This document shows positions 6,441 through 64,000 of a DNA stretch of 64,000 nucleotides, in pieces (position 1 is the first letter of the stretch; every line of letters starts with the position of its first letter). This DNA comes from Cyrtodaria siliqua (Eukaryota > Mollusca > Bivalvia > Adapedonta > Hiatellidae). The stretch is from contig JAWPHD010008237.1 in assembly GCA_037043455.1 (NCBI GenBank), forward strand, positions 1-64,000, read 5' to 3'. Under the pieces are notes generated by a model. That model was not told the origin of the DNA, searched no databases, and saw nothing but the letters and a program-made list of their open reading frames with translations. The position numbers and the translations under genes were made by a program.

Positions 6441-9400
6441 TTAAAAGGAGTTTACTCAAGGCATCTACGGATTAAGTAATCGTCAGTTTTCGTCTCGCTT
6501 TAGATTGGTTCTAAACTGCATACGCCGAGGAAACTCGGTGAAAAGTCGCAACTCAGTTTGATGAAAATGGACGGATTTAACGATGGATGTGATAAGTCTG
6601 TGTTTCTATTTTATTCCTTATCGTTTTTGGATTGTTCTGTTTTCCATTTATTTCAATCTAATGAGTACACTGCTATGTTTTAACATTTAAGTCTAAGTAT
6701 TCGCGAATATGTATTTATTGCGTTTGCATTGCTTCAAAAAAGTGTCAATTCAATTCATGCATAATAGGGCCATGTATCTACTTTTTAATTTCTACCACTC
6801 ACGTTCAGCTCGAATTTTTAAGAAATGAATGCTCTACCACCAGCACTGATTTCGGTTGCTTGTGTCATCTTGTTGAATAGTAAAGTCATTTTACACTACC
6901 TTTTAGGATATAGTTGACGGTCGTTTTTTATTGTGGTAGAGCCAGATCACCCACGTATTCCTGGGTAGAACCAGTACTCTATACCTCCCGCCATCCGTAC
7001 GAATCGACACATTCTGACTTACAAGTTGAGCTCGCAGTGGGATTCCAACCCGAACGGTGAGAAGCGAGAAGGTTTTCATCGCAACGGCTTTAACCCCTGG
7101 ACCCCGGAGGCCTGAAAATGACAGACTATGAATATCTATGGAAGTATAATAACGATAAACAACAACATAGTGTGTTGATGATCTGTTAAACAGCAATTCA
7201 ATTTAAAATCTTCGCCTTCCTGTATGTGTTCATTATTAACATATTTTTCGTTTCCAATCAAACAGGTCTGTTTGTGCATTCAGTGTTTAGAAACGGACTG
7301 GCGTGCGCAACAAAGCTGTGTGAATGTTCGGCCGACCAGGTACGTGGTATGTCATAGATGAATAGAAGGTAACCATTTTCTCTGACAATATGTTCCAGAT
7401 GTTCCTGATGTTTGTATCTGAGATTCTGAATTAAATATTTTTATTTTCAGGATGCTCAAATGATTACAGTCATAAGCTTAGATTACAGTCATAAGCTTAG
7501 ATATTTGTAACGACCATTAACATGATGATTGTCTAAGCGTCCCGCATTTTCTACACGTCATGTCGGTCTATAGTTATTCATAGATTGTTTTTATTTTATA
7601 TGCCATACAGAGATATGATGTCTTGATTCGTGTCAACACCTACAACCGTGTACTGCACTTTCTACATGTCGGTACCTACAACAGTGTCCCGCACTTTTAA
7701 CAGGTCAGCACCTACAAAAGCGTCCCGCATTATCTACACGTCACGTCATGAAAACACCAATTATTTTCGACATTGACACCAATGTTACTTTATTAAAAAT
7801 TCATGATTTTCTGCAACTTCATCTCAAGTATGAATAACGCAGCAGTGAAATTTTCATATAGAAAAATACTTTTCCACTTGAAAAGCAACAAAAAAGGGTG
7901 GGGTAACAAGACCTGTAAGAAAGTTATTGTTTGTTTACTAAACAGATCAAGGGTACAGCTGTTTTCACTGATAGCTGCTCACAAAGTGTATGTATAGATA
8001 AATGTTCATCAATAATCCAGTAAACCTAATACTCTTCTTACACATAAAACAACAAAATTGAATAGAAATTGCCAATTTCCCTTATAATGTCCCCATTTCC
8101 AACAAAAAAGGAGGGATTATTTTTTATTATATAAACTTCATTCGACTGCACCTCGGAGGTTTATATGCAACCTAATTAGTTATTCATCTCCAATATTTAT
8201 ATTTTATATGCCATACCGACTATAACCAGGGGTCAGCACCTACAACAGTGTTCCGCACTTTCTACATGTCAGCAACTACAACAGCGTCCCGCACTTCATA
8301 CACGTCAACGCCTGCAACAGCGTTATGCACTTTCAACACATCAATACCTACAACAAAATCTCACACATTCTACATAACACCTACAACAACGTCCCTCACG
8401 TTCAACATGTAAACACAACATATCGTCCCGCACTTTCTACACGTCCAACACTTTCTACACGTCCAACACCTACAACAGAGAATGGAAGAATATCTTGGAT
8501 ATTCGGGTGTAATTTCTACTGCGAGCCAAATAAGGCAGATTCGGTGTTAGAAAAGCCATGGCTTATTGACACCGCGGCAATGAATAGAAGTTCCACAACG
8601 ATTTTGAGGAAATATCGTCAAAACAAACCAATTCGGAATCTGCTGTTGCAACACTTAAAATCTTTTTGACAACACTATTTACGGGGAAAGACGCTGATGG
8701 GAATCTTGGATTCAAATTTCTTACTGATTCACAATTTAACGTTGAATGTTCGGCTGCCATTATGTGGTCCTGCCTTAATTCTATTAAGCGATGGGAAATC
8801 TTATATTAGCAGGATTTTATAACGGATATTTCGACAATAAAACACCTTTAAAAACATGTTTTTACTGAACAAATGCGATGACCTGTTTAAATTTACTTGT
8901 TAATTTTTTTAATTTTACAATATGCAAACATTTTCAGCCGAAATTAAGGTTTTGTTTCATACCCAAGCCAACCCGTTTTCGCTTCTTTGAGAAGGGGTTT
9001 GATGAGTTATGAAATTTAATACTCGGACCACGTAATGGAAAATTTGAGCAAAATGCGGTGGTTCACCAAGGTGTTGATATGGAAGGGATACAATACGGGA
9101 CATGTCTTCAGTATGCTGCAGATATTGTGGACCACACTATTCTCACTTCAGATGGCCTAAAAACCTTTCAAAGAATGGGCATAATTGCAACTGTTACACT
9201 GTTATATCAGGCAATTTTAATTGCAAACCAGTACCTAGAGAAAGTCTCACAGCGAGTGAAGTGACTGCTATTTAGAAAATACAAATTTCGTATTTTATGT
9301 CTAAGAGCAAATACAAGCCAGCCTTGAAATATAAACAACTGTCTTCGTTCTAATCAATAGTGACGATGAATGCTATTATATTGGGGAAGACCTTTTGGTG

Positions 9401-43505: not shown

Positions 43506-43937
43506 TATAGGAAGTGCATTGCTCAAGAACCATTACTCTATGCTCATTCGACCTTGATACCTACTGGTGAGACTGGAGGATGTGCAGAGCTCAATAACCA
43601 TTACTCTATGCTCATTCGACCTTGATACCTACTGATGGGACTGATGGATGTACAGAGCTCAAGAACCATTACTCTATGCTCATTCGACCTTGATACCTAC
43701 TGATGAGACCGATGGATGTACAGAGCCCAAGAACCATTACTCTATGCTCATTCGACCTTGATACCTACTGTTGAGACCGATGGATGTACAGAGCCCAAGA
43801 ACCATTACTCTATGCTCATTCAACCTTGATACCTACTGATGAGACCGATGGATGTACAGAGCCCAAGAACCATTACTATATGCTCATTCAACCTTGATAC
43901 CTACTGATGAGACTGATGGATGTACATAGCACACGAC
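43506..43937. repeat. 68-bp tandem repeat, about six units
   Basis: CCATTACTCTATGCTCATTC recurs at 43530, 43598, 43666, 43734, 43802 and 43870, spaced exactly 68 bases. Each unit continues CCTTGATACCTACTG and GATGGATGTACAGAG. The units differ by a few substitutions. No protein frame is kept across units. Confidence 0.95.
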
Positions 43938-44965
43938 TGATAACTATAGCTTAATATTGAGTTAGGACATAATTATTCTCATATGTTGTCTGGTATGCTA
44001 TTGCTTTTGGTCATTCTTGTTTGTTGTTGTATACGCCTTCATTCACAAAAGAATCCATTTCGAGGAGCATCCATCGGTTCTACCTGTATGTTGTTTGCTG
44101 ACTGTGCGCCATGAATGCTACATGTTCTATTCGACTTTTGTATCTACTTTTGTTTATCAAATATGCCTTAGTAAATGTTATAACCGTTTCACGCGCAAAA
44201 CAAAAGCAAAGGAGTTGACTTACCGTGTTGTTCTCGTACAAATTGCCCATTGCGAAGGAACTATGCTAGGTATTAATTTGTTGTTTTCGCTTATATTATG
44301 TATACATGTACTTGCTTATAGTATGTCCGATATTTTGCGTTGTCAATAAGAAAATGAATATTTAAACTAAACGAACATCTGTTGTTACATTTCTGTATCA
44401 GCTATTTAAAAGACTGAAATCATTGCAACATATTAAAGATACCCAACTTAATTCTTATAAAAAAAACTATCATTATCGTCAGTTGTTTCCCTTGCATTTT
44501 GTTTGCTTGTTCAGCGCTGTAACGCGTATATACTTATCACAGTGTAGAATCGAACTGTATCACCTCCCGGATGTTGCGTTGTGATTTCAATGGCGAGCTC
44601 AGTAAAGTGAATACACGTGGTTAAAAAAGTATCTATTACTTGGATTATATCTTGAAGATAGTAAGTAAAATTGTTTTAGCTAGTATCCTAATAGATTTCG
44701 TTAACGTTCTCATCTGCTTATTAATGTCAAATCGGCACATGTGACGTTAAATCACTGAAAATCGTCCGACATTTCTGATGAAATCGACACACCGACATAT
44801 GTGTAAAGCCATTTTCATCAAGTGTACGCAAGTTTAAGACCATTGATAATATAGAACGTGTTAGCTAGCATATTGATGTAAACTTCGGATGTATGAAATG
44901 CTTTCATATTGTTATTTTACCGTGTGACGGTTCCAAAATCTGAGGGATGTCTTGTGTAATGACTG

Positions 44966-46519
44966 TATGACTTATTGCATTGATTGTGTATGTCAATGGC
45001 GATTACCGATATTCAATATGTATGACTTATTGCATTGATTGTGTATGTCAATGGCGATTACCGATATTCAATATGTATGACGTATTGCATTGATTGTGTA
45101 TGTCAATGGCGATTACCGATATTCAATATGTATGACTTATTGCATTGATTGTGTATGTCAATGGCGATTACCGATATTCAATATGTATGACTTATTGCAT
45201 TGATTGTGTATGTCAATGGCGATTACCGATATTCAATATGTATGACTTATTGCATTGATTGTGTATGTCAATGGCGATTACCGATATTCAATATGTATGA
45301 CTTATTGCATTGATTGTGTATGTCAATGGCGATTACCGATATTCAATATGTATGACTTATTGCATTGATTGTGTATGTCAATGGCGATTACCGATATTCA
45401 ATATGTATGACTTATTGCATTGATTGTGTATGTCAATGGCGATTACCGATATTCAATATGTATGACTTATTGCATTGATTGTGTATGTCAATGGCGATTA
45501 CCGATATTCAATATGTATGACTTATTGCATTGATTGTGTATGTCAATGGCGATTACCGATATTCAATATGTATGACTTATTGCATTGATTGTGTATGTCA
45601 ATGGCGATTACCGATATTCAATATGTATGACTTATTGCATTGATTGTGTATGTCAATGGCGATTACCGATATTCAATATGTATGACGTATTGCATTGATT
45701 GTGTATGTCAATGGCGATTACCGATATTCAATATGTATGACTTATTGCATTGATTGTGTATGTCAATGGCGATTACCGATATTCAATATGTATGACTTAT
45801 TGCATTGATTGTGTATGTCAATGGCGATTACCGATATTCAATATGTATGACTTATTGCATTGATTGTGTATGTCAATGGCGATTACCGATATTCAATATG
45901 TATGACTTATTGCATTGATTGTGTATGTCAATGGCGATTACCGATATTCAATATGTATGACTTATTGCATTGATTGTGTATGTCGATGGCGATTACCGAT
46001 ATTCAATATGTATGACTTATTGCATTGATTGTGTATGTCGATGGCGATTACCGATATTCAATATGTATGACTTATTGCATTGATTGTGTATGTCGATGGC
46101 GATTACCGATATTCAATATGTATGACTTATTGCATTGATTGTGTATGTCAATGGCGATTACCGATATTCAATATGTATGACTTATTGCATTGATTGTGTA
46201 TGTCAATGGCGATTACCGATATTCAATATGTATGACTTATTGCATTGATTGTGTATGTCAATGGCGATTACCGATATTCAATATGTATGACTTATTGCAT
46301 TGATTGTGTATGTCAATGGCGATTACCGATATTCAATATGTATGACTTATTGCATTGATTGTGTATGTCAATTGCGATTACCGATATTCAATATGTATGA
46401 CTTATTGCATTGATTGTGTATGTCAATTGCGATTACCGATATTCAATATGTATGACTTATTGCATTGATTGTGTATGTCAATTGCGATTACCGATATTCA
46501 ATATGTATGACTTATTGCG
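44966..46519. repeat. 55-bp tandem array, 28 full units
   Basis: Units start TATGACTTATTGCATTGATT and end CCGATATTCAATATG, at exact 55-base spacing from 44966 to 46505, plus a 14-base partial. Variants mark sub-blocks: GACGTAT instead of GACTTAT in the units at 45076 and 45681 (605 bases, 11 units, apart), GTCGATGG in three consecutive units near 45980-46095, and CAATTGCG in the last three units. High identity implies recent expansion. Confidence 0.98.
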
Positions 46520-52500: not shown

Positions 52501-52901
52501 TCATGCCGCAGTAATGAGGGCGCCAGTGAAATGACTGGAATAGTCAGGATAAACATACCCCCAATGGTAACAGCCGGATGGGTAAACAATGTCGCCCTTG
52601 CGTAGACTTAGGTAGGCGGCTGCAGTGGCTGACTGGTAACCATTATTAGATGTGGTCAAAGCTTTTGCAATGTAATGTGTGCCTTTTCGAATGAAGCAAC
52701 TCGTATAATAGATATCCTTCGTCTTCCTGTTATAAGCAGTTAAGGTTAGGAAAAAGTGGTATAATCCTGATATGGTACACGTGAATATGCCAGATGTACT
52801 GTTATACCCTCCACCGACGTTGGCGACAACTCTGTTAAATATCGGAATACTATTTACCAACGTCGTGTTCGGATGTGTCACAATGAATGACACGGCGTGG
52901 T
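52501..52901 (-). CDS. C1q-domain protein, last exon
   Basis: C1q domains are beta-sandwich trimers that bind varied ligands; secreted C1q-domain proteins are greatly expanded in bivalves, where they act in innate recognition. The exon is read on the reverse strand. A strong acceptor (TTCTCTTTCCAG) ends at 52902, then HAVSFIVTH opens the domain, FNRVVANVGGGYN and SGIFTCTISGLYHFFLT follow, and SSHFTGALI with a short tail closes it before TGA at 52501-52503. These are the usual strands from the N-terminal AVSF through the Gly-rich IFTxxxxGxYxF box to the C-terminal FxGxLI. About 133 residues is the usual C1q domain length. Upstream exons (signal peptide) were not found in the window. The exon looks intact. 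Confidence 0.85.
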
Positions 52902-52904
52902 CTG

Positions 52905-53700
52905 GAAAGAGAATAGTAAATACATGGTCACTATTTGTTATGATAACTAATATACTAGCTCTTTACCACAAACGAGTTAACATTGTGCATCAGAACAGTA
53001 CCAACATATGTTATACCATAATGTAGGCGTCTGATCCATATTACAAATTAAATAATGATGAGAAGATGTACAACAGGACATGAGTTTGCCTTACACTTGT
53101 ACATATAATAGAACTGAGAGTGTCCAGAAGGAGAGATGTATGTTATCTTTAAATGCAATGAGATTTATTTGTTTCCAGATATCAGTTTGTGACAAAACAT
53201 GTTTCAAAATATTGAAGAAATGAAAATCGTATTTGTACAGATAACTAAATATTTGTATTGAGATAGTGTGTGTTCGTTTGTTTAATTATTACTTTGTATT
53301 GGTGTGTTTTATGATTATTAAATTACTGCTGACCACTATATTTACATTTCCCATTGTTTAGTTCTGGCGCTGAAATCGATGTTAATCAGGCTTTGTAAAA
53401 AAATGTATTTGGTCAAATATAGTTTGTTTTTTCTAATTTTTGAAAAAAAATATGTTTTTAATATTGAACGTGTATTTTTGTATTTCATTATTAGCTCTCT
53501 GTCATCAATATGACTTTAAAAAGAGTTCTCGATGGACATCGGCTTCCCTTGTGTCTTGTGTTAGTCAGAATATTCTGAAAAAGTCTTTAGTGTTTGCCCT
53601 ACTTTTTCCTCCAATCAGACGGTGAGGAATTATAAAAAAAATGGCGAACTTATTCATGTAAATTTCTAACGATCACAAATGTTAACCATTTAATCATTAA
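52905..53700. other. Intron or upstream of C1q gene; no gene seen
   Basis: AT-rich. No signal-peptide exon could be recognised on the reverse strand. The short frames are unsupported. Confidence 0.4.
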
Positions 53701-53710
53701 TATATATGTA

Positions 53711-53900
53711 AAATGGGGGTCCTGTGGGATTTTTGAGTTGCCGAAAATACCACAGGAATTTTTTTAATTTTTTAAACACACCTATCTACAAATCAGCATG
53801 AAATGCTGATTTTGCTTGTTATTTGTTGATTTTGCCCAAATATTTCATGAAATGGTGATTTTACTTGATTTATTAAAACTTTTTTAAAAATGGGGGTAGT
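53711..53900. repeat. Hairpin cluster at the probable left edge of the virus-like element
   Basis: Two clean hairpins sit here: 53721-53756 (CCTGTGGGATTTTT pairing with AAAATACCACAGG, one mismatch) and a perfect 9-bp one at 53791-53811 (AATCAGCAT-GAA-ATGCTGATT). AAAATGGGGGT (53710) recurs as AAAATGGGGGT at 53886. Repeats and hairpins are common at Polinton ends, but without the right end a terminal inverted repeat cannot be proved. Confidence 0.4.
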
Positions 53901-54283
53901 GAAGATTGCAAGTTTAAATTTTTTTTTATAAGTTATCAAAATTATAAAATGTTTATTTAATACAAAACAAATTTGTTGATTTGTTATTAAAATTATATTT
54001 AAATTAACAATTTTCTGACCTTGAATACAAAGGTGGTGGATCGTACTCATACACATTACTTTATAAATAAAAACTAGTACTAAGAACATTTTAATTAATT
54101 ATATCATTATATTAGAAGTGAAATATGGATAAAAATCTGCAAAAAAAACCAAAAAAACATTTCTCTTTACTTATTAGTCAACACTGCTTATTTATTTAGA
54201 ACTTAATTAATATTTGTTTGTGTTTATTGATGTTATTTGTACTTTGCCTTTTTTGTCACTTGTATTATATGTTCTTCACTGCA

Positions 54284-54780
54284 CTATCTGCACAATTTAT
54301 AAATCTCTGTAACTAGAGGATATAAAGAGTATAAATAAATAAATAAATAAATCTTAAACTCTTGATCAGATATTTGTGCATCACTCAACGCTTTTGATAT
54401 TAACTGCTTTATACTATTTAACTTAGCCTCTGCCAAAGTTTTTATTTCGTGATGTTTTTGAGCTTTTACATTAAGCTTGCGTCTGATAAAATTAACGCAA
54501 ACACCTGCAGCTCCACATACTATTGCTGCTATTTCTAAAGGTAACAAAACTGGAATAGCAAATCCAATCCCAGCAATATAATAACACCTGCCGATATTAA
54601 GGTAGTGTCAATTCCATCTGTAATATTAATACCACGTTTATATTTTTTATAAAGAGATTTGCGTGTGTCTCGCTCTGTAATTAACTTTCGTTCAATCTCT
54701 GAAATCTTTTGTAATCTGTAATTTTGTCCGTCTTCCGCTGGCAACTCAGGATATATACTTGGTGCTGTCGGTTGCTTCAT
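54284..54780 (-). pseudogene. Small membrane protein of the virus-like element (frameshifted)
   Basis: Two reverse-strand frames, 54535-54780 and 54284-54547, overlap and belong together. The first begins MKQPTAPSIYPELP, continues with GQNYRLQKISEIERKL and KKYKRGINITDG, and enters a hydrophobic segment. The second begins within the same hydrophobic segment and continues with KAQKHHEIKTLAEAKLNSI and ALSDAQISDQEF. A one-base indel near 54570 separates them. The 3' end runs into an ATTT microsatellite (about 54330), where the original C-terminus appears to be replaced. I recognise the layout (basic-acidic helix, hydrophobic hairpin, helical tail) as a conserved family near such elements in aquatic invertebrates; function unknown, possibly virion membrane or internal protein. 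Confidence 0.6.
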
Positions 54781-54810
54781 TTTTAATTAATAAATAAAAC
54801 ATTAATATAA

Positions 54811-54850
54811 TTCAATTAATAATGATGCCACCGTATTTACAGCGGTAGCA
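54811..54850 (-). pseudogene. Duplicated scrap of the fibre-like gene end
   Basis: Reverse-strand reading gives TAVNTVASLLIEL, the same as the C-terminus of the gene at 55261-55738 (55268-55308), with near-identical nucleotides. It shows a local duplication or recombination next to the small membrane protein gene. Confidence 0.7.
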
Positions 54851-55260
54851 ACCGGACAGGATTTTAAGCAACGTGATTTGGTTAAGTTTTCAATCTTTGT
54901 TACTTTCAAGACTCAAAAAAATAATTATAATTATAAATATTGGTAACCACGTGTTAACATTTTCAAAAAATGACCATATTTTATAGTATACCCATACCCA
55001 TTCCTTTTAATTTTCATTTTCCTCTTCAACTTCAAATTCCTCTACCTCTTCATTTTCATTTTCCTCTTTCATTTTTTTTCCCTCATATAATTAAAACATT
55101 ATATTTTAAAAAAAAAAATAGTTCAGAGACTAAATTTTTAAACATATCTTTTAAGGGCAAGCTCTCAATACCCAGTACACTAATTATCATACTGTTATGC
55201 AATTTTGTATATAATATATTTTTTGTTGATACAAAAATCAAGCCAGCTCGTAGAATTAAA
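54851..55260. other. Spacer between two damaged genes
   Basis: Mostly AT-rich. A 21-codon acidic reverse-strand frame (55007-55072, starting MKEENENEE) follows a promoter-like AAAATATAAT, but it is too short to support. The forward frame 54970-55269 is its shadow. Confidence 0.4.
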
Positions 55261-55738
55261 TTAAATTAATTCAATCAATAATGATGCCACCGTATTTACA
55301 GCTGTAGCATTGGCAATCTTGCATACAAAGTTAACAACAGAACCAGGACCAATCTCTAAAGGTTTATCAAAGTTATCATGATTGCGTGGAATGATGTGAA
55401 GCGTTATACCATAATTTGGTTGTTCAACACCATTGACAGAAACTATTACAGTTACGTCACCAACTAATCGGTCACATGCTAAACCTATTCCCATAATTCG
55501 TCCTCACATTTTTTTCTGCCCCGCCGTTACCAAATGAGAGTATTCTGTTTGATACAAGTGGGCCCTTAGCCTCTGCAAATATTGTTATAATTCCGTATTT
55601 AAGATTATCAACTCTATTTTTTAAATGATTAAACTGGTCAACAAAAGGCGCAATTCGCCTATATAAATTTTGAACATCATTTATCAAGGCCTCTAAGTCT
55701 TCTGTTTATTTAGGTCTTGTTGGTCCATATATACTCAT
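55261..55738 (-). pseudogene. Fibre-like small beta protein (premature stop and frameshift)
   Basis: The reverse-strand start ATG at 55736-55738 follows the shared AT-rich promoter motif and reads MSIYGPTRPK, then a TAA at 55706-55708. The frame resumes as TEDLEALINDVQNLYRR and a coiled segment, then GPLVSNRILSFGNGG. Near 55490 a one-base indel moves the rest, GIGLACDRLVGDVTVIVSVN to NTVASLLIELI, into another frame. A helical stalk followed by a compact beta-rich head ending in ASLLIEL suits a trimeric fibre or attachment-type virion protein; this role is inference. Two independent lesions make this copy non-functional unless it is recoded. Confidence 0.6.
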
Positions 55739-55765
55739 TGTTTTCTTTTTATAAAAATATATTTT
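55739..55765 (-). promoter_or_regulatory. Virus-like promoter motif
   Basis: On the reverse strand TTTAAAAAATATATTTTTAT lies 10-35 bases before the ATG at 55738. The same motif recurs at 59105-59125, 62488-62506 and, in looser form, 56412-56440. Confidence 0.5.
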
Positions 55766-56410
55766 TTAAATAATTTCTAAAACACAACTCATAGGCATTC
55801 CGTGATTATCTATTTTGTAGCCATACACATCTCTAACTTCTATTTTTAATTCAGAAATTGCACCATTCATAAGACAATGATATTCAGGATAAAAACTTGT
55901 ATATACTATATCTCCAAACTGCTTATTTACTACAGGTACAACACCTATAATAGTGCTTGGCTTACCATTGAAATAATTACTACTCGTATTAACTTGTTCC
56001 AGATGAACATATAGCTGTTTATAACGAGCTAAATTAATTGGGTAATCTCCCATATTAGTACCTGTTAACCATTTTCTGTCCATGAATCCCAACATTTTTG
56101 AAAGACCGCTTGACATTCGTGTTTCTATTGGCGTATGTATAATGGCTGCACCAATTTGGACAATATTGTCCAGAATAATATTTTCATTTAGCTGTTTAAA
56201 ATCTTCTACCAAGTCTTGAAAGTTATAGAGTCCAGCTAGTACATGTTTTATTTTAGCTGGGTTTCTTGTCTTTATGATTTCATCATTAATATTATACCAA
56301 CCGATAGTGTATGTAAAACTTTTTAATCCAACGCGCTTAGTTCCATCTCTAGTATCGATATACTGTTGTAAATTAATAGAGTTGTCTATGTTTGAAATTG
56401 TATGAAACAT
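55766..56410 (-). CDS. Penton-like (minor capsid, single jelly-roll) protein
   Basis: 214 residues. In Polinton-type virions a single-jelly-roll protein forms the pentameric vertices beside the major capsid protein. I chose the ATG at 56410 (MFHTISNIDNS) because it directly follows the AT-rich promoter; 21 further codons upstream are translated promoter. Visible blocks are RVGLKSFTYTIGWYNI near residue 26, LAGLYNFQDLVEDF near 59, SKMLGFMDRKWLTG near 103, YKQLYVHLEQVNTSSNYFNG near 129-148, STIIGVVPVV and, at the end, DNHGMPMSCVLEI. A beta-rich pattern and the position beside the capsid-type gene set support the penton role; I recognise it as a family conserved in such elements but have not searched. 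The gene is intact and divergent from the 424-residue gene. Confidence 0.6.
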   Translation of the reverse strand: MFHTISNIDNSINLQQYIDTRDGTKRVGLKSFTYTIGWYNINDEIIKTRNPAKIKHVLAGLYNFQDLVEDFKQLNENIILDNIVQIGAAIIHTPIETRMSSGLSKMLGFMDRKWLTGTNMGDYPINLARYKQLYVHLEQVNTSSNYFNGKPSTIIGVVPVVNKQFGDIVYTSFYPEYHCLMNGAISELKIEVRDVYGYKIDNHGMPMSCVLEII

Positions 56411-56453
56411 TTTTTTTTTAATATATATATATATAAAAACACAAATAAAAAAA
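56411..56453. promoter_or_regulatory. Bidirectional AT promoter between penton-like and 424-residue genes
   Basis: Only 43 bases, with a T run, a run of seven AT pairs (TATATATATATATATA), and A-rich sequence up to the forward ATG. Both start codons lie within about 45 bases of it, so 5' leaders must be very short. Confidence 0.5.
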
Positions 56454-57728
56454 ATGATTTCTAAAGAATTCAAATATAACCCGGATGCTCAATATGTAAA
56501 TACTTTTAGCAAGAAAGTGATAGATATAATAAATCAAAACATAGTCATTACATCAGATGGTAAAGGCTTTAAAGCATCATTCCCCAATGTCTTTGAAAAA
56601 TACAAACTTTCATACGTCAAATCAGATGCTATAGTCCAACGCTGGGGAACAGATTGGATGTTATTTTGGCAGAATCAGTTAAACTTTGCTATTTGGTGTG
56701 CGACCACTGGCTGTGGTATTGATTTCAACAACCATCTAAAAGCTGATACTCTGGTTGGTTCGTTATTTCGATTTCATGTCTATTACCAAGTCAGAAGAAT
56801 ATTATTTGAAATGAGTGTAGCAATGCCAAAAGACTCAAATTGGAATGCGTTTAATAACACATATAACCGAAACGCATACGAGAGAATATGCAAGGAGTTT
56901 AACGTTGACTTATATTCAGACTGGAGACAGAAACAAAGCTATAATAATGGTCTAGGAACAATTTATAATTACTGGACAAATATTGGTTATCATCCTTTGG
57001 TAAATACTGTATACGACAACAAAACGATGAGTTTCACAGTCTATGAGAGTGATAAAACATATCACATTGATTACATTGCACAAGGATCTGAGGCAGACAA
57101 CAGCTGGTCTACTTTTATACTAGATAGTTCATCTGGATTTACAAGAGCAGGAGTAGAAAGAATCAATGACAGCATAAGAACATACTGCTGGGCAATTCTT
57201 GGTTCACAATCACAAACAAGAACAGATATACTTGGAACTGGGACAGCATTTGATGCACAAAAACAATTTTTAGCAAATGTAGAGGACGCAATAAATAGCC
57301 CCATCGACTTACCCAGTCAAATTTCAAGATATGAAAACACTTTAAAATATGCAAGAAGTAAAGTAAATTTTGTCTATGGAAGTGGATTGTACATGTCTCC
57401 GAGTGACATGGAATTAAGAATCGGAATAATACAAGACTGCAATAATGAAATTGTAATAGCAACCGATGCACAAGCATTAGGATTGAATAATGATGTAAAT
57501 GTAAAACCAGTGCCACCAAAAAATATTCAACCTTTTCAAGGCACCACAACAAAGAAATTTTTACCGGAACATTCTGACTTTGATAAATCATCAATACATA
57601 AAACTGTGGAGCATAACTCACCAGAAATACAAAAAATAGCGATTGGACACGAAGATAACAAAACAACTATAATTGTTGGTACTATAGTAATAGGTCTTGC
57701 TGCATTACTTATTTACGAGATTTACTAA
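56454..57728 (+). CDS. Conserved virion-type protein with C-terminal membrane anchor
   Basis: 424 residues, intact. The N-terminal two thirds are soluble and rich in Trp and Tyr: WGTDWMLFWQNQLNFAIWC near residue 65, LFRFHVYYQVRRILFEM near 104, MPKDSNWNAFNNTYNRNAYE near 123 and GLGTIYNYW near 164. After a loop region and Pro-rich linker, the last 20 residues (from IIVGTIVIGLAALLIYEIY) form a single membrane segment, so it is probably a type-II-like or tail-anchored protein facing the virion interior or lumen. The first blocks recur in the same gene neighbourhood in other invertebrate Polinton-like elements as I remember them; the function is not known. The end overlaps the convergent coiled-coil gene by 20 bases. 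Confidence 0.7.
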   Translation: MISKEFKYNPDAQYVNTFSKKVIDIINQNIVITSDGKGFKASFPNVFEKYKLSYVKSDAIVQRWGTDWMLFWQNQLNFAIWCATTGCGIDFNNHLKADTLVGSLFRFHVYYQVRRILFEMSVAMPKDSNWNAFNNTYNRNAYERICKEFNVDLYSDWRQKQSYNNGLGTIYNYWTNIGYHPLVNTVYDNKTMSFTVYESDKTYHIDYIAQGSEADNSWSTFILDSSSGFTRAGVERINDSIRTYCWAILGSQSQTRTDILGTGTAFDAQKQFLANVEDAINSPIDLPSQISRYENTLKYARSKVNFVYGSGLYMSPSDMELRIGIIQDCNNEIVIATDAQALGLNNDVNVKPVPPKNIQPFQGTTTKKFLPEHSDFDKSSIHKTVEHNSPEIQKIAIGHEDNKTTIIVGTIVIGLAALLIYEIY

Positions 57729-58821
57729 ACCACTCTTTGGCTGCCACATACAACAACCCGGAAACAAACACAAGCAAATTCCATAAATTGTTACCAAGCC
57801 AATTAATAACATTACCTGTTGCAGATAAAAGCCATGATACTATTGCACCAATAACTCCTGGAAGTGCTGCAGCAGCTTTACCAGCTAGGTTGGCAAGAAG
57901 TTTACCAAGATTAAATAGTTGTTTTTTTATCCAATCTTTTACACTTGATGGATCAGGCTTTGGAGTTGGAGTTGGAGCAGTCTCTCCTCCTTTTGTAGGA
58001 ATAATGGTCTCAACTAATACCCCAATAATCATACCAAAGGCAGTCAAAATACTAACAATAGTAATACCTTGCTCCCTAAACAAGGTTTTGATTCTCTCAC
58101 CCAATGTTGTGTCTTTTCTTAACACCTTATTTATAGTTTCTTTTATCCTGTTTATTTGACTGCGTAATGCTTCTTTGTTTTCACTCGCCGCTTCAAGTCG
58201 ATTACTTCTTTCATCTTCTAAGTTTTTTATTCTGTCACGTAGGCGCTCTTGTTGAAACTCATCCTCCTGCCCGGGGGTGCTAACCTGTTCTAATTTTTGT
58301 TTTTCTTTTGCTATATTTTTATCAAGCTCAGTGAGCTTTGAGAGATTATTAGTAAGTTCTCCACGAAAGCTTTGCAATACCTTGTCTAAACCTTGTAACT
58401 CTCGCATTGTTAGACCTTCTGTTTGTGTTTGAACAGCAGTTTTAGAATGAGTTTCATCTATTGTATTACTAAAATTACTCTCAATTATATTTACAGCATC
58501 TACTGTATTTTGTACATCTTCAGTTGTTGAAAAATGTTGCATTGATATATTTTCTCCTTCTTTTGTGAGGGTATCTCTTGTTTTTGCCAAGGCTGCTAAT
58601 TCTGCCCTACCCGGAGCCTTTCTTTCACGTGGGGCTAAATAATCAGATATTTTTAAATTATTTTTTATGAAGTCAATGCCATATTTTCTACGTAGAGTGT
58701 CCAGCACATAAAACTTGATTGGTTCGTTTGGATTATATCCCTTATAATAGGTAAGTGGAACATTATCTATCCCCAGCCGAACTGCATATAACAATATTCT
58801 ACCGTTTTCATCATTAACCAC
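57709..58821 (-). CDS. Coiled-coil membrane protein of the virus-like element; start uncertain
   Basis: 370 residues. The N-terminal globular part reads LLYAVRLGIDNVPLTYYKGY and FYVLDTLRRKYG, then RKAPGRAELAALAKTRDTL, followed by a long coiled coil (about residues 135-240). A hydrophobic segment follows near 252-275 (VSILTAFGMIIGVLVETI), then a Thr/Pro linker, a Gly/Ala-rich hydrophobic region (LAGKAAAALPGVIGAIVSWL) and a last membrane segment ending KEWFSKSRK. A stalk with several membrane segments could be a membrane-remodelling or entry-related virion protein (inference). The frame starts with GTG. No in-frame ATG exists between it and the stop of the upstream gene, while an ATG two to four codons upstream is one base out of frame, so a small deletion at the start is likely. 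Confidence 0.75.
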   Translation of the reverse strand: MVNDENGRILLYAVRLGIDNVPLTYYKGYNPNEPIKFYVLDTLRRKYGIDFIKNNLKISDYLAPRERKAPGRAELAALAKTRDTLTKEGENISMQHFSTTEDVQNTVDAVNIIESNFSNTIDETHSKTAVQTQTEGLTMRELQGLDKVLQSFRGELTNNLSKLTELDKNIAKEKQKLEQVSTPGQEDEFQQERLRDRIKNLEDERSNRLEAASENKEALRSQINRIKETINKVLRKDTTLGERIKTLFREQGITIVSILTAFGMIIGVLVETIIPTKGGETAPTPTPKPDPSSVKDWIKKQLFNLGKLLANLAGKAAAALPGVIGAIVSWLLSATGNVINWLGNNLWNLLVFVSGLLYVAAKEWFSKSRK

Positions 58822-58833
58822 TTTAAAATCATT

Positions 58834-59088
58834 TTAATAATCAATTCCGCTGACCTCAACATCAACTTCAGTAAAGAATTGATCTACTAACCACTTTTTT
58901 TGTGTAAGCTGTTCTTCTGTTTTATCTTCTCCTTCAAGCTGATCAATAAGCTTATTTTCATTTACAATTTGTCTCTGAAATTCTGAGGCAGGTTGTATAA
59001 ATTCGTCTTCGTCTTCGTCTTCAAGTATTCTATCTAAGTCTTCTTCAGTCATATCGAACGCAGGATTTTCAAATCCTCCTTCAGCCAT
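58834..59088 (-). CDS. Small acidic protein
   Basis: 84 residues, starting MAEGGFENPAFDMTEEDLD with an Asp/Glu run near residue 23 and a helical end. It precedes the coiled-coil gene by about 12 bases on the same strand and shares a 47-base divergent promoter with the capsid candidate, so both are likely expressed late together. Function unknown; acidic small proteins of this kind can be scaffold or core proteins, but nothing here proves it. Confidence 0.6.
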   Translation of the reverse strand: MAEGGFENPAFDMTEEDLDRILEDEDEDEFIQPASEFQRQIVNENKLIDQLEGEDKTEEQLTQKKWLVDQFFTEVDVEVSGIDY

Positions 59089-59135
59089 TGTTTATTTTAT
59101 TTAATTTTAAAAAATATATTTAAAAAATAAAAACA
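59089..59135. promoter_or_regulatory. Divergent promoter, acidic protein and capsid candidate
   Basis: TTTTAAAAAATATATTTAAA is at 59105-59124 and the forward ATG follows at 59136. The same short block must also serve the reverse gene, whose ATG is at 59088. It matches the motif at 62488-62506. Confidence 0.55.
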
Positions 59136-60404
59136 ATGTCGGCTTACGGAAACAAACTCAGCCCTCATAGAAAACTAAGAGAACCTCATGGTGCCAAGGG
59201 CATCCGCACAAGTGTAGTAATAACTAATAATCCCTCAACAATAGACCAAAACCAGCAACTGCTTGTGAGATTTCCCAACCTAAGTACTAATGATGTGATA
59301 GTTCCAAGTACTGCTCGTCTTGCCTTTGAAATAGAACTTAAAAGCAGAACAGACGCCAACGCTACTCTATTTCAAAATCTGGGTAGAACAATTGTGAAAA
59401 AAATGACAATAAGAATAAGTGGCAATGAAGTCATGTCAATAGATGACAGTGATATATATCATTGCTACGTAGATTTATGGAAAAGCCCTACCCAAAGATT
59501 AAACATAGCTTACCAAGGTATTGGTAAATCAAACATGCTAAAACATAGAGTTGGTGCAGGAGATAAAACCGCAGACACTGGAGATGAAGCTATAGCAGCA
59601 GCTTACGGAAATAGATTTTGTATTCCACTGGACTTTGAAATGTTAGAAAGTCATATGCCATTTTATCGAGCGGGGCTTGGTGACAGGTTAGAATATGAAT
59701 TAACGTTTAACGATTATAACAAAGTTATCAAAAGCAGTGATGCTGATGCATCTTATGTAATAGAAAATATCTGCTTGGAATTTGATACAGTTAGTGATGT
59801 TCAATTAGCCAGACAAATAAGACAGCAAATCAATGGTAAGATGTCATTTATGTATGATCGTGTTTTGCGACATAGAAAAATAATAGCAAACAAATCTGAT
59901 ACTCTTTGGAACATCAACATTAATGTACCAGCACGGAGCATGAAAGGTATTTTAATGCTGTTTGAAGACCCAGAAAGAACAAGCACAGAATCATTTTACA
60001 ACCCAAAAATTGAAAAGGTTGAAATGACAATAGAGGGAGTACCAAATCAGTTGTATAGTCAGGGCATGAGGGCATATCAACATTGGGATGAAATTAACAA
60101 ATATTTTGCCTTAACATCAAAAAGAAACAAAGAGACAGAAATAGTAGCGAGGGACTTAAACTTTACCAATGTTTCTCTTGAGACTTATCTGACAAAATCA
60201 TATGCTTTGTGGCTTGACCTTAGAACATGTGATGACAATTTATTACACGGCAGTGGAAGAAGAATAGAAAACGGCAGTGAAGGCATAACGATATTAATAA
60301 ATAAAAAAGCAGATGCAGATCAAACTTTAAATATTTATCTATATATAATACAAGACGCGCAAATCAATTTCGAAGATGGAAGATTCAAAGAAGCAGGATA
60401 CTAG
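59136..60404 (+). CDS. Major capsid protein candidate (double jelly-roll)
   Basis: 422 residues, intact. It would form the hexon-type capsomers of the virion. Blocks visible are VVITNNPSTIDQNQQLLVRF near residue 27, NLGRTIVKKMTIRISGNEVM near 86, YGNRFCIPLDFEMLESHMPF near 162, LGDRLEYELTFND near 185, RVLRHRKIIANKSDTLW near 243, NVPARSMKGILMLFEDP near 263, IEKVEMTIEGVPNQLYSQGM near 291, ALWLDLRTCDDNLLHGSGRR near 367 and a beta-strand end. The all-beta pattern, repeated twice, and the overlap with the packaging ATPase downstream support the role. It is shorter than many Polinton capsid proteins (often 500 or more), so structure prediction is the right test. The last 29 bases overlap the ATPase start. 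Confidence 0.7.
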   Translation: MSAYGNKLSPHRKLREPHGAKGIRTSVVITNNPSTIDQNQQLLVRFPNLSTNDVIVPSTARLAFEIELKSRTDANATLFQNLGRTIVKKMTIRISGNEVMSIDDSDIYHCYVDLWKSPTQRLNIAYQGIGKSNMLKHRVGAGDKTADTGDEAIAAAYGNRFCIPLDFEMLESHMPFYRAGLGDRLEYELTFNDYNKVIKSSDADASYVIENICLEFDTVSDVQLARQIRQQINGKMSFMYDRVLRHRKIIANKSDTLWNININVPARSMKGILMLFEDPERTSTESFYNPKIEKVEMTIEGVPNQLYSQGMRAYQHWDEINKYFALTSKRNKETEIVARDLNFTNVSLETYLTKSYALWLDLRTCDDNLLHGSGRRIENGSEGITILINKKADADQTLNIYLYIIQDAQINFEDGRFKEAGY

Positions 60405-61038
60405 TTTGCAACAAAAATATCCTAAATATTCACACAGTGCCATTATTTGTGGGCAAACAGGCTGTGGTAAAACAGAGTTTGTTCTTGACATACTTGAACA
60501 AGAGTATGTTGGAGTTTTTAAACATATAATTATATTGTGTCCAACCATAGAGTGGAACGAGGCTTATAAAAATAGATCCTGGATAGGAGATGTGAAAAAC
60601 CCTAAAGATAAAAAAATAATAATTGTCAATCCCGTTAGAAACGGTAAAGAAATGTTACAAGAACTGTTGCGTTTATTTTTCAAAAGATATGCTGGCCAGC
60701 CCACATTATACATTATTGACGATTGCTCAGCCACAAAAGAATTAACAAAGAAAAAAGATATGTTATCAGAGTTGGCATTCTCTGGTCGCCACGCTAAACA
60801 ATCAGTGTGGGTCATTTCACAAAGATATAATTCTGTATTGAAAGATTTGAGAGAGCAAGCAAAATGGTTGTGTATGTTTTACACTAAGGACAGAGATAGT
60901 TTTGAAAATTGTTTGAGAGAAAATGATGTTATTCCGACGTTGGAGGAGAGAACCAGAATAAGAAAAGCTTTAGCTAAGACTAAATATTCCAAGTTAATAT
61001 TGAGAACTGACCAACCAACTGGTTATTGGGTTGAATAA
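60376..61038 (+). CDS. A32-type genome-packaging ATPase
   Basis: 220 residues, intact. Members of this FtsK/HerA-related family pump DNA into preformed capsids of Polintons, virophages and large DNA viruses. The P-loop is IICGQTGCGKTEF with Walker A at residues 26-33. Walker B is LYIIDDC at 111-117, with paired Asp as usual for A32-type enzymes. The sensor-like region SGRHAKQSVWVISQRYNSVL follows near 136-155. Size is typical. The start overlaps the capsid candidate by 29 bases in a different frame, a common viral arrangement that couples expression of the two morphogenesis genes. Confidence 0.9.
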   Translation: MEDSKKQDTSLQQKYPKYSHSAIICGQTGCGKTEFVLDILEQEYVGVFKHIIILCPTIEWNEAYKNRSWIGDVKNPKDKKIIIVNPVRNGKEMLQELLRLFFKRYAGQPTLYIIDDCSATKELTKKKDMLSELAFSGRHAKQSVWVISQRYNSVLKDLREQAKWLCMFYTKDRDSFENCLRENDVIPTLEERTRIRKALAKTKYSKLILRTDQPTGYWVE

Positions 61039-61378
61039 TTTCTACCAGCAATTCTTTTTTTCTAACAGCATTGCTTTGTTGCTAATAGTAATACTAACAG
61101 AAAAGTAGCAATGTTAATAGCAATACTGACATGAAAATATAATGAAAATATCAGAAAATATAGTAATGCTAATAGCATTGCTCATAGTAAAGTAGCAATG
61201 TTAATAGCAATGCTTGCAGCAAATTAATAATGCTAATAAAAAAATAGCAATATTAATAACAATGCTATTAACAATACTATTAACAATACTAACAATTACT
61301 AGTTGCATGAATATCACAGCTAGTTGTTTTGTATTTTATATTTATTTCAAGATAAAAAATAAGATTAATAATATAAAA
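61039..61378 (+). repeat. Degenerate AGCAATG/TTAATA repeats
   Basis: Short units such as GTAGCAATGTTAATAGCAAT and GCTAATAGCATTGCT recur about 12 times between 61085 and 61300, several as small inverted pairs. The open frame that extends upstream from 61379 to 61214 (hydrophobic LITMLLTILLTILTI) is translated repeat and begins at TTG, so I do not treat it as protein. Confidence 0.65.
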
Positions 61379-61864
61379 ATGAATGCGGAAGAACTATTAC
61401 AAAATATATCGGAACATACGGAACCAGATGAATCAAAGCAACAAGAAACAAAAAAAGAAAGATTATCAGCCATAGTGGCTGGCGGTGGTAGCCGTCAATA
61501 TTTGGGTAAAGACATACAACTCACGAATATAGATAGCATGCCCCCGGATGAAATTTACAAACTTTACTGCAGGTATGAAGCAAGGCTTGGGGCAAACATG
61601 ACTAAAACTTTAGGCAATTCTTTTATTAACTTGTATGTGATTGGAGTATCAAAATATGTTAATGTAACCAATCCGCCAAAGCTGATAGAAGATTTGGAGG
61701 AAGACCCATTTATTAATCATGCTTTGACAAGCGCTGGTTGTGAGTTGTATTACAGATATGGAATGTGCTTAGCACCATTTACAGCAATACTGACAAATGT
61801 TAGACATATTGATTTTAATAAAAATAAAAATACAGATAATATAAATGGAGAATCAAGAGAGTGA
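61379..61864 (+). CDS. Conserved small protein of the virus-like element (161 aa)
   Basis: I start it at ATG 61379 (MNAEELLQNISEHTEP), the first methionine after the repeat. A charged leader is followed by LSAIVAGGGSRQYLGKDIQL, DSMPPDEIYKLYCRYEARLG, MTKTLGNSFINLYVIGVSKY, a Pro-containing turn and DPFINHALTSAGCELYYRYG near the end. The GGGSRQYLGK and YEARLG phrases look strongly conserved and I recall them from similar elements, without a known function. The protein is mostly helical with no membrane segment. The end overlaps the next gene's ATG by 20 bases. Confidence 0.65.
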   Translation: MNAEELLQNISEHTEPDESKQQETKKERLSAIVAGGGSRQYLGKDIQLTNIDSMPPDEIYKLYCRYEARLGANMTKTLGNSFINLYVIGVSKYVNVTNPPKLIEDLEEDPFINHALTSAGCELYYRYGMCLAPFTAILTNVRHIDFNKNKNTDNINGESRE

Positions 61865-62216
61865 AGTTATACCTGTTGATACACAACCTGTTGTTACACA
61901 ACCTGTTGAACAACAAAAAGTAAAAAATCCAAAACGAGTAAAAGCTGGAAAAAAAGGAGCAGCGGCAAAAGAGGCAAAGCGTTTGCTTCAAGATGTTACA
62001 AATCAAAATGCTGCAAATCAAATAACAAAAATAACAATAGGTGAAGAAGAACCAGAAAAAATCAAAATAAACGTATACAAAAATTATATTCCACCGTGTC
62101 TGGTTTTATTAGGCATTGCTGGGTTGGGTTTGTATATTTATAACAAGAAATCTGCTACACAACCTGTAGCTGTGCAACCTGTTCATGTTGCACCAAAAGA
62201 CCCGTTTGATTTTTAA
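61845..62216 (+). CDS. Basic single-pass membrane protein (123 aa)
   Basis: Starts MENQESEVIPVDTQPVVTQP with a repeated QPV motif, then a basic stretch KNPKRVKAGKKGAAAKEAKR near residues 26-45 that could bind DNA. A membrane segment follows (about 81-100, PCLVLLGIAGLGLYIYNKK), then a second QPV-rich tail ending PKDPFDF. A basic region on one side of a membrane anchor suits a small core or internal membrane protein of a virion (inference). It overlaps the upstream gene by 20 bases. Confidence 0.6.
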   Translation: MENQESEVIPVDTQPVVTQPVEQQKVKNPKRVKAGKKGAAAKEAKRLLQDVTNQNAANQITKITIGEEEPEKIKINVYKNYIPPCLVLLGIAGLGLYIYNKKSATQPVAVQPVHVAPKDPFDF

Positions 62217-62286
62217 TAATTTATTTTAAAATAATAATCATATAAAAAAAATAGCAGCAAGTATTGACGGAAAACAAATTGTAAAT

Positions 62287-62487
62287 ATGATGTATCATGC
62301 AGGAGTGGAAACACTTCTAACTGTCGGATATTCTGAAATTGGCAGAAAAATACTAAAAAGACCAGCCCCTAAAGTGGATTTTAATATGGTAGATGTTGGG
62401 ATGCTGTCTGTGGATATAATGTTAGCAATGGCTACAAAGGATATGTTGATTAAGCAAGGTATTATTCCTGCGGATATTATGAAATAA
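62287..62487 (+). CDS. Small conserved protein, probable lost start codon
   Basis: From ATG 62287 it reads MMYHAGVETLLTVGYSEIGR, then LKRPAPKVDFNMVDVGMLSV and a C-terminal helix ending GIIPADIMK. The frame is open further upstream to an ATA at 62251-62253 (reading AASIDGKQIVN after it). That ATA sits in the context TATAAAAAAA-ATA-GCAGCAAGT, closely matching TATAAAAAAA-ATG-GCAAGT at the next gene. I infer that the ancestral start was there and mutated from ATG. Translation may now begin 12 codons later. Hydrophobic central helix; function unknown. Confidence 0.6.
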   Translation: MMYHAGVETLLTVGYSEIGRKILKRPAPKVDFNMVDVGMLSVDIMLAMATKDMLIKQGIIPADIMK

Positions 62488-62514
62488 TTTTAAAAAAATA
62501 TATATATAAAAAAA
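62488..62514 (+). promoter_or_regulatory. Virus-like promoter motif
   Basis: TTTTAAAAAAATATATATAT is followed by AAAAAAA and then the ATG at 62515. It matches the motifs at 59105 and 55745. Confidence 0.55.
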
Positions 62515-62934
62515 ATGGCAAGTGCAGTAGCAATGATGATAGGTGGCGCATTAACAAATGCATTAGCGTTTAGCGGTTCAAATTATTTCTTTTCAAAAAT
62601 GGGAAGTCATTCAGATGAGGAAAGACAAAGGCATGACAAAGCAGTGGAACAATTAAACGCAGCACAAGCGGCGTGGAATAAAAAAAGAACAGAGAGATTA
62701 GATTTTATTAATAAGCAACTGCAAAAAGAGCATCATGCAGAGCAGACTTTTGATGATGTAGACCAAGCTATGAAGCAGTATTATTATACAACTGGCAAAC
62801 ATTTGCTTTTGGAACCGGAGCCCAAGTTGAGTGATTTTTATACACCATCTCCGGATCAACAGAATAGAGAAATTACGTTTATTGTGGTGGGCATGGCTGC
62901 AACTGGATTTGTGGCGTATAAATTGATTTCATAA
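62515..62934 (+). CDS. Conserved small virion-type protein (139 aa)
   Basis: Starts MASAVAMMIGGALTNALAFS, a small-residue amphipathic helix, then SNYFFSKMGSHSDEERQRHD, a coiled coil with AAQAAWNKKRTERLDFINKQ near residues 50-70, LSDFYTPSPDQQN near 102-115 and a C-terminal membrane segment (ITFIVVGMAATGFVAYKLI). I recall the same layout as a recurrent gene of invertebrate Polinton-like elements. A possible comparison is with small membrane-active minor capsid proteins, but there is no direct evidence. Intact. Confidence 0.65.
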   Translation: MASAVAMMIGGALTNALAFSGSNYFFSKMGSHSDEERQRHDKAVEQLNAAQAAWNKKRTERLDFINKQLQKEHHAEQTFDDVDQAMKQYYYTTGKHLLLEPEPKLSDFYTPSPDQQNREITFIVVGMAATGFVAYKLIS

Positions 62935-62996
62935 AAAAAAAAAATAGTTTAAAACTATAATTACTTTAGACTTTTTTGGATTTGGGATGACTAAGT

Positions 62997-63308
62997 TTAC
63001 TTTGAAAAGACTAAGTCATATGCATGATACCTATTTTTTTTGTTGTTTTTACATGGTTTCAATCCAAGTGGTCGAATATAATATGGTAGTTTAGCACTCT
63101 TCTCTAATTTATTTTTGAGATGATCAGGCGCCCTTACTTCACCGTTGTCTGATAATGTCAATACCATGGATGGACCATATTCAGTATCTACTATTTTTGT
63201 ATCTGTAATAGTGTATATTTTATTTACTTCCAAGTCTGTCCATTTGTTTGTGCTATTTTGATATAGCTCTTCGAGCAGTTCATCAAATCGTGCAGTTGTG
63301 ATTTCCAT
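62997..63308 (-). CDS. Small OB-like protein, possible ssDNA-binding
   Basis: 103 residues starting MEITTARFDELLEELYQNST. The middle has a beta-rich pattern, YTITDTKIVDTEYGPSMVLT then LSDNGEVRAPDHL, and a conserved-looking end YYIRPLGLKPCKNNKKNRYH. Alternating beta strands with basic ends fit an OB-fold nucleic-acid binder, which such elements often encode, but this is inference. It is divergent from the integrase across 44 bases, suggesting that the two are expressed together, perhaps early. Confidence 0.5.
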   Translation of the reverse strand: MEITTARFDELLEELYQNSTNKWTDLEVNKIYTITDTKIVDTEYGPSMVLTLSDNGEVRAPDHLKNKLEKSAKLPYYIRPLGLKPCKNNKKNRYHAYDLVFSK

Positions 63309-63352
63309 TTTTTCTTTATAGTTATATAAAGTTTATTCTTTAGTAGAAAAAA
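63309..63352. promoter_or_regulatory. Divergent promoter, OB-like protein and integrase
   Basis: Contains TTATATAAAG (63322-63331), a TATA-box type sequence, but lacks the TTTAAAAAATATAT motif of the capsid genes. It may be a different temporal class. Confidence 0.4.
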
Positions 63353-64000
63353 ATGGAAAAGATTTATTACAGCCCAAAAGGATTTTGGAGAGGTTACACA
63401 GTAGTTAAAAAATTAGCAAAAGAGGCTGGTGTTAGTGAAAAAAAGGCATTAGAATTTTTAAAGAAACAAGCTGTGTGGCAGATTTATTTACCTGCGCCAA
63501 AGAAAATAGTTAGACCCAGGTTTGATGTTTCTGCTAAAAATGGAGTGCATCAAGCTGATTTGTTATTTTTACCGCATGATACTTTTGGGATTGATCGTGG
63601 ACGCAAGACATATAAATATGCGTTGACTGTGGTTGATATTGCAAGTAGATACAAAGAAGCAGAGCCACTGACTTCCAAGGATAGCAAAGAAGTTGCTAAA
63701 GCATTTGAGAATATATACAGTCGGCATTTGAAATATCCAAAGTTATTACAAGTTGACCCAGGCAGAGAATTTATGGGTGCAGTATCGCAGTTGATGGCAA
63801 AACACAAAGTAAATATCAGACGGGGCAGAACAGAAATACACAGAGACCAAGCTTTAGTGGAAAGATTTAACAGAACATTAGCTGAGAGATTGTTTGGTTA
63901 TCAGTATGCTAAAGAAATAGATTCACAAAAACGCAACAGAGAGTGGGTAAAGAGATTACCAGAAGTTGTCAAAGCCATAAATGCGGAGACAAAAAAGCCT
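63353..64000 (+). CDS. DDE integrase, retroviral type (truncated by window end)
   Basis: 216 codons are open from ATG 63353 to the last base, with no stop. The N-terminal part (YYSPKGFWRGYTVVKKLAKE) is a helical DNA-binding-like region seen in Polinton and Ginger integrases. The catalytic core has Asp69 (HQADLLF), Asp135 (LQVDPGREF) and Glu170 (ALVERFNRTL), with 34 residues between the last two, as in the rve superfamily. Strand transfer by this enzyme would insert the element into the host genome. Polinton integrases are about 300-400 residues, so roughly a third lies outside the window. Intact as far as seen. Confidence 0.9.
   Translation, partial: MEKIYYSPKGFWRGYTVVKKLAKEAGVSEKKALEFLKKQAVWQIYLPAPKKIVRPRFDVSAKNGVHQADLLFLPHDTFGIDRGRKTYKYALTVVDIASRYKEAEPLTSKDSKEVAKAFENIYSRHLKYPKLLQVDPGREFMGAVSQLMAKHKVNIRRGRTEIHRDQALVERFNRTLAERLFGYQYAKEIDSQKRNREWVKRLPEVVKAINAETKKP

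Follow-up and report, generated by a model that had tools for sequence, protein, structure and literature searches.

An integrated Polinton in Cyrtodaria siliqua with a predicted double-jelly-roll capsid protein and likely exchange of DNA ends between copies

The stretch of 64,000 nucleotides (nt) from the bivalve Cyrtodaria siliqua analyzed here (further, the window; the first 64 kb of the 117,692-base contig JAWPHD010008237.1, in a genome of 2.88 Gb) raises two questions: what kind of virus-type element is integrated at its right-hand side, and how have the ends of this element been formed? The original prediction had placed here an integrated virus-type element with a capsid candidate, a packaging ATPase and an integrase, and the open frames and protein family matches bear this out. 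Our reading, which we consider highly probable, is that the element is an integrated Polinton bounded by terminal inverted repeats and a target duplication of 5 base pairs (bp). It has a predicted double-jelly-roll capsid protein, would replicate by means of its own polymerase B, likely inserts by means of its own integrase, and likely exchanges its DNA ends between copies. The Polinton is well bounded; its gene content is ordinary and its ends are unusual.

Boundaries, core genes and capsid copies

The element spans contig positions 53700-68689 (14,990 bp). Positions 53700..64000 are inside the window, and the 4.7 kb outside it include the gene for DNA polymerase B as well as the other terminal repeat. 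The left end was placed at 53700, as inward alignments starting near this position are found at 39 other genomic places, close to where a terminal repeat had been expected to start, and the right end was placed at contig position 68689. The left terminal inverted repeat (53700..53958) starts with the tip ATATATATGT, behind which a hairpin is predicted (tip type I, see below), and the matching repeat that had been sought to the right is present at contig 68433-68689; the first 150 nt of the two ends differ by three substitutions. The sequence CATTA, directly outside both ends (53695..53699 on the left, contig 68690-68694, outside the window, on the right), forms the target-site duplication. The first estimate of the terminal repeat, about 450 bp, was dropped, since the repeat proper stops at 53700 and the outer 86-bp match belongs to the flank. 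This match, inverted and identical in both flanks (53520-53605 and contig 68801-68886, about 100 bp outside the ends), would perhaps be accounted for by insertion of the Polinton into a host repeat of the foldback type or similar to a miniature inverted-repeat transposable element (MITE).

The open frames are present at the coordinates given by the original prediction. The A32-type genome-packaging ATPase (60376..61038, plus strand) matches Pox_A32 (1.2e-12) and a terminase family (E 1.9e-17). As predicted, it carries Walker A (GQTGCGKTE) and Walker B (YIIDD) motifs and overlaps the capsid candidate, its start (60376) preceding the end of the capsid gene (60404); it is stop-free in eight copies. 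The retroviral-type integrase (plus strand) starts at 63353, with the first 216 of its 304 residues in the window (63353..64000) and the end of the frame at contig position 64267. It matches rve (Pfam, 7e-8), and the complete frame has all three acidic residues of the predicted DDE triad (D69, D135, E170). No HHCC pattern was seen in it, i.e. it is without the N-terminal zinc finger, which is also lacking in Polinton integrases according to PMC2836005.

The polymerase, reported as absent so far by the original prediction, follows the integrase just past the window edge as a 1107-residue frame (contig 64252-67575, minus strand). Pfam gives no match for the frame itself; among the 120 relatives listed (58-79% identity over query residues 560-1107) PF03175 is frequent, and some of these relatives, from Elysia crispata, bear the name DNA-directed DNA polymerase. 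In the window copy the polymerase is broken at its front: the part that comprises about 155 residues in relatives is encoded in a different frame and contains one stop. Therefore, this copy is probably not autonomous, being probably unable to multiply unaided. Longer open polymerase frames exist in other copies. Thus, the recent activity deduced earlier from the open core genes stands for the family and fails in part for this copy. In 9 of the 42 scored polymerase copies, with open frames of 1290-1369 codons, the last 120 residues or so form a separate match block, as if a polymerase subfamily had an in-frame insertion before the C-terminus.

The candidate major capsid protein (59136..60404, plus strand, 422 residues) has 2967 database relatives and hence is not a chance frame. 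Among the 120 matches listed, capsid relatives are found on many contigs at 77-92% identity, one of them filed under the metagenome-assembled genome (MAG) of Candidatus Thiodiazotropha endolucinida, a lucinid clam symbiont. The match to Capsid_N is weak (Pfam, 0.0021, below the cut-off). Structure comparison, proposed by the original prediction for this frame, yielded capsid-like folds from a weak model: those listed from the PDB are either capsids with a double jelly roll or the poxvirus scaffold, the top match is a 420-residue MELD virus protein (Foldseek, BFVD; 12% identity, low TM-score, i.e. template modelling score), and an adintovirus capsid is also among the structural matches listed. 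The length of the protein, earlier considered unusually short, is thus close to that of its best structural match. Both Foldseek and VIA matches of this low-confidence model point to the double-jelly-roll capsid expected for a Polinton; as the matches score low, the assignment depends on their consistency, and the protein is best described as a predicted double-jelly-roll capsid.

At least 99 copies of the capsid gene are present in the genome, a lower bound from a scoring that favours intact copies: each of the 99 places scored, one of which is the window copy, matches over the full length with at least 95% identity, and 93 are stop-free. The first-look counts of 4204 for the capsid and 15905 for the polymerase refer to candidates, not copies, and no total is claimed. 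For comparison, 35 capsid copies were taken, i.e. the window and 34 of the 98 other places, best-scoring and chosen mainly for long contigs. Compared pairwise, they differ in DNA by 2.7% in the median and by 4.1% at most, three of them contain a single stop, and the ratio of nonsynonymous to synonymous divergence (dN/dS, summed dN over summed dS) is 0.21, where dN may be lowered by sampling that favours intact, similar genes. In this sample the capsid gene is under purifying selection.

This effect of sampling counts against our reading of the element, and so do several other observations. The capsid model is poor (predicted local distance difference test, pLDDT, 49.9; predicted template modelling score, pTM, 0.42), the BFVD matches listed for it have TM-scores of 0.16-0.31 by model length with a root-mean-square deviation of at least 16 Å, several of them are uncharacterised, and two are named otherwise (BTB, F-box). 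The ATPase match is broken into two blocks in two of the eight copies, and only 22 of the 42 scored polymerase copies are stop-free in the matched part, so many copies are decaying. No relative was found in scans of IMG/VR contigs, which rely on short exact stretches, the three single-protein scans among them reaching close relatives only. As the original prediction had noted for the part then seen, no Ulp1-type protease was found, the right-hand part of the element included: Pfam detects no peptidase family in ten window frames and four right-hand element frames, but this silence is weak, since Pfam missed the polymerase, too. The penton-like gene of the original prediction (55766..56410, minus strand, 214 residues) is an unconfirmed candidate, with no convincing match in sequence searches of Pfam, PHROGs, NCBIfam and PDB sequences.

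Tip types and exchange of ends

Both ends of 30 other copies were considered. Nine of these (L010, L012, L020, L061, L063, L066, L073, L075, L076) had no repeat pair in the pieces fetched and were dropped; the remaining 21 and the window copy form a set of 22 usable copies. The tip is ATATATATGT in all 22, and the target duplication anchored on this tip is exactly 5 bp in 17 copies, 6 bp in one copy and absent from four. The sequence following the tip belongs to one of several types, namely I (four copies, including the window), II (three), III (three), IV (five) and V (seven). In types II, III and IV a long predicted hairpin starts at or near the first base, and in type I a predicted hairpin starts from about base 20. 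The folding energy is below that of mononucleotide shuffles by 5.2 to 15.7 standard deviations for types I-IV, and by 1.2 to 3.3 for type V.

In the 21 pairs as well as in the window copy, the two ends have the same tip type and align at 86.5-100% from the tip inward. Over the first 150 nt (fewer nt in one copy) the divergence between them is 0-7%, with no substitution in 7 of the 22; given this low divergence, the insertions are young on the family's own scale. Copies are not grouped by tip type on the capsid tree more than in shuffles: the type changes 12 times, compared to 13.3 times in shuffles, and 44 of 200 shuffles are as low. The median capsid difference is 2.6% between copies of unlike tip types versus 2.4% within a type, and some pairs of unlike type are only 0.7% apart in the capsid. 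Since the tip type is not in line with the capsid tree and yet equal at both ends of a copy, the ends look exchanged and then copied across; DNA ends have likely been exchanged between copies.

The simplest mechanism would be recombination in the inner repeat that the copies share, with one end then being copied onto the other through a panhandle. The Polinton would be replicated by its own polymerase B and likely inserted by its own integrase, and several Polinton genomes may meet in one cell during replication. There, a genome could gain a new tip by recombination within the inner repeat; the two ends of a single-stranded genome would then pair to form a panhandle, and copying of the panhandle would place the new tip at both ends. 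The tip hairpins are likely structural, since a predicted hairpin is retained in four types although their letters differ, and they may form the structure at the replicating DNA end that is used by the polymerase, the packaging machinery or the integrase.

Several points speak against such an exchange, or against a role for the hairpins. Some copies of the same type are adjacent on the capsid tree, the tip types were assigned by eye, and a copy with unlike ends could hide among the nine dropped ones. Type V ends have no hairpin, which is therefore dispensable. Moreover, gene conversion of repeats in the host genome could replace exchange during viral replication.

A 19-nt dyad is located further inside the repeat, and the dyad or a partly similar stretch is found in 34 of the 60 end pieces. 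Its occurrences comprise 28 that are fully paired, with C-G, G-C or T-A at one and the same arm position, nine with T-G at this variable position, four with one or two other mismatches, and five where the site is an unrelated-looking stretch with five mismatches. In each of the 29 loci found by the window copy's own repeat, the dyad has the G-C form. A binding site of a dimeric protein and a hairpin would explain the dyad equally well. In addition, a stretch near the tip, of roughly 80-105 bp and longer in L017, is repeated in L014, L015, L017 and L025, hence the length of the terminal repeat varies by duplication.

A bolder version, rather doubtful in our view, is that of an animal Polinton lineage with interchangeable ends. 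At least five kinds of cassette, of which four form hairpins, would make up its outermost 80-90 bases, and genomes residing together would trade these cassettes and copy them from one end to the other. The ends would then act in replication, packaging or integration by folding back as hairpins, beside or instead of plain protein-primed ends, and the integrase would cut 5 bp apart.

Alternative explanations

The strongest alternative, to which we give somewhat less than an even chance, is that the tip variety comes from separate infections by strains that were already different and had recombined outside this genome. The scatter of tip types over the capsid tree is also expected from recombination in a virus population, and the duplications show that the insertions were independent. 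The high similarity of copies within one genome, on the other hand, fits local spread, without being proof of it. As far as the ends are concerned, exchange in the virus population before infection fits the data equally well as exchange between resident copies.

Next, the element may be a self-copying germ-line transposon, its capsid genes being carried along with no particles leaving the cell. At least 99 copies in one genome and the lack of relatives in the viral contig scans agree with that. Against it, the capsid gene is under purifying selection over 35 copies (dN/dS 0.21), and selection of this kind has been argued by Barreat and Katzourakis (PMC8097293) to indicate particle formation and reinfection. 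Moreover, the capsid has the relatives at 77-92% identity on many contigs (120 listed), including the one under the Candidatus Thiodiazotropha endolucinida MAG, and a second conserved protein, of 424 residues, has a relative named from Mactra antiquata. On balance, we regard the transposon as rather unlikely.

Less likely still, and improbable in our estimate, are foldback MITE-like repeats inserted at the ends of older copies as the source of the tip palindromes. The palindromes do resemble foldback elements, and the identical 86-bp inverted match in both flanks of the window copy would suit this origin, but the shared tip ATATATATGT adjoins a 5-bp duplication in 17 of 22 copies, and the same tip is found at both ends of a copy. 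Within the 64-kb window, moreover, the copy's own tip matches over its whole length, and two others match over 23 and 35 nt from their start; these three matches are all located at the end of the element, and the remaining two of the five tips match nowhere.

Finally, the label of a Polinton-like virus, under which the original prediction was titled, is very improbable despite the short capsid candidate and the protease that was not found, and was rejected in favour of a Polinton proper, given the element's polymerase B and retroviral-type rve integrase, both mostly absent from Polinton-like viruses (PMC11071308); only in a loose use of the term would the label apply.

Other frames, known Mavericks and significance

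The 424-residue protein (56454..57728, plus strand) has 793 relatives, one being that from Mactra antiquata. Its helical model is confident (pLDDT 85.6, pTM 0.80), and its long C-terminal helix 394-423 is likely a membrane anchor. No structural match to this model was found. Conserved and without a structural match, the protein is a candidate new component of the virion or surface. The 370-residue protein (57709..58821, minus strand), with a coiled-coil-like region and a hydrophobic C-terminal part, has weak matches, mostly of coiled-coil types. The other small frames encode proteins of 162 (61376..61864, plus strand), 123 (61845..62216, plus strand; with a hydrophobic stretch), 139 (62515..62934, plus strand) and 103 residues (62997..63308, minus strand).

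Left of the element there is a frame with a C1q domain (52501-52893, minus strand; Pfam 2.8e-15). This frame, the relative from Mactra and the one filed under the clam symbiont MAG would by themselves point to a bivalve as the likely host. Tandem arrays are located at 44964-46518 (55-bp unit, 28.3 copies, 99% matches) and 43524-43930 (68-bp unit), and tandem repeats that resemble each other, for the most part with a 36-bp unit, are found in two regions, 1221-2527 and 7632-8469. On the right side of the element, a frame of 250 residues (L009 6787-7539, plus strand) has no reverse-transcriptase match in Pfam; presumably, it resembles the end of a reverse transcriptase of the type without long terminal repeats.

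PMC11071308 and PMC4028283 describe Polintons whose genes include those for a polymerase, an integrase, an ATPase, an Ulp1 protease and capsid proteins. The element shares with Polintons/Mavericks (class Polintoviricetes) polymerase B, the integrase without a zinc finger, the A32-type ATPase, a double-jelly-roll capsid candidate, terminal inverted repeats and a target duplication, and differs from them by the Ulp1 protease that was not found, the variable tips with predicted hairpins, and the capsid of 422 residues. The closeness to MELD viruses and adintoviruses is that of the capsid matches given above, the 420-residue MELD protein being the best one and yet having a low TM-score at 12% identity. 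Compared with vertebrate Mavericks, as presented in PMC8097293, core genes are likewise under purifying selection and intact copies are found beside decayed ones; vertebrate Mavericks have AG-type or AGT-type ends and a 6-bp duplication, whereas this family ends in ATATATATGT with a duplication of 5 bp. The same source gives up to 38 intact copies per genome, to be set against 93 of 99 scored capsid genes that are stop-free here, the latter number referring to one gene and not to whole elements. Among the open-licence papers that searches on Polintons and Mavericks listed, covered mostly by titles and the first parts of abstracts, none describes hairpin ends, exchanged ends or a 5-bp duplication for Polintons.

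As in the hard clam, the Mavericks here are present in many copies in a bivalve genome. In a table of the hard clam paper (PMC8905726), the two columns give 7091 and 6453 copies of Mavericks, or 1.69% and 1.93%; the passages concerned give counts only, with no ends, capsid type or selection. Thus, a high Maverick copy number in a bivalve is not new.

Polintons have a central place in hypotheses on how the DNA viruses of eukaryotes originated. Swapped ends would be a direct, countable trace of how a linear genome replicates and recombines, which is rarely visible from sequence alone. According to the abstract of PMC8097293, viral particles of Mavericks had not been observed; with about 100 or more similar copies, capsid genes that are mostly open in the scored set, and insertions with matching ends, this family is a good place to look for one.

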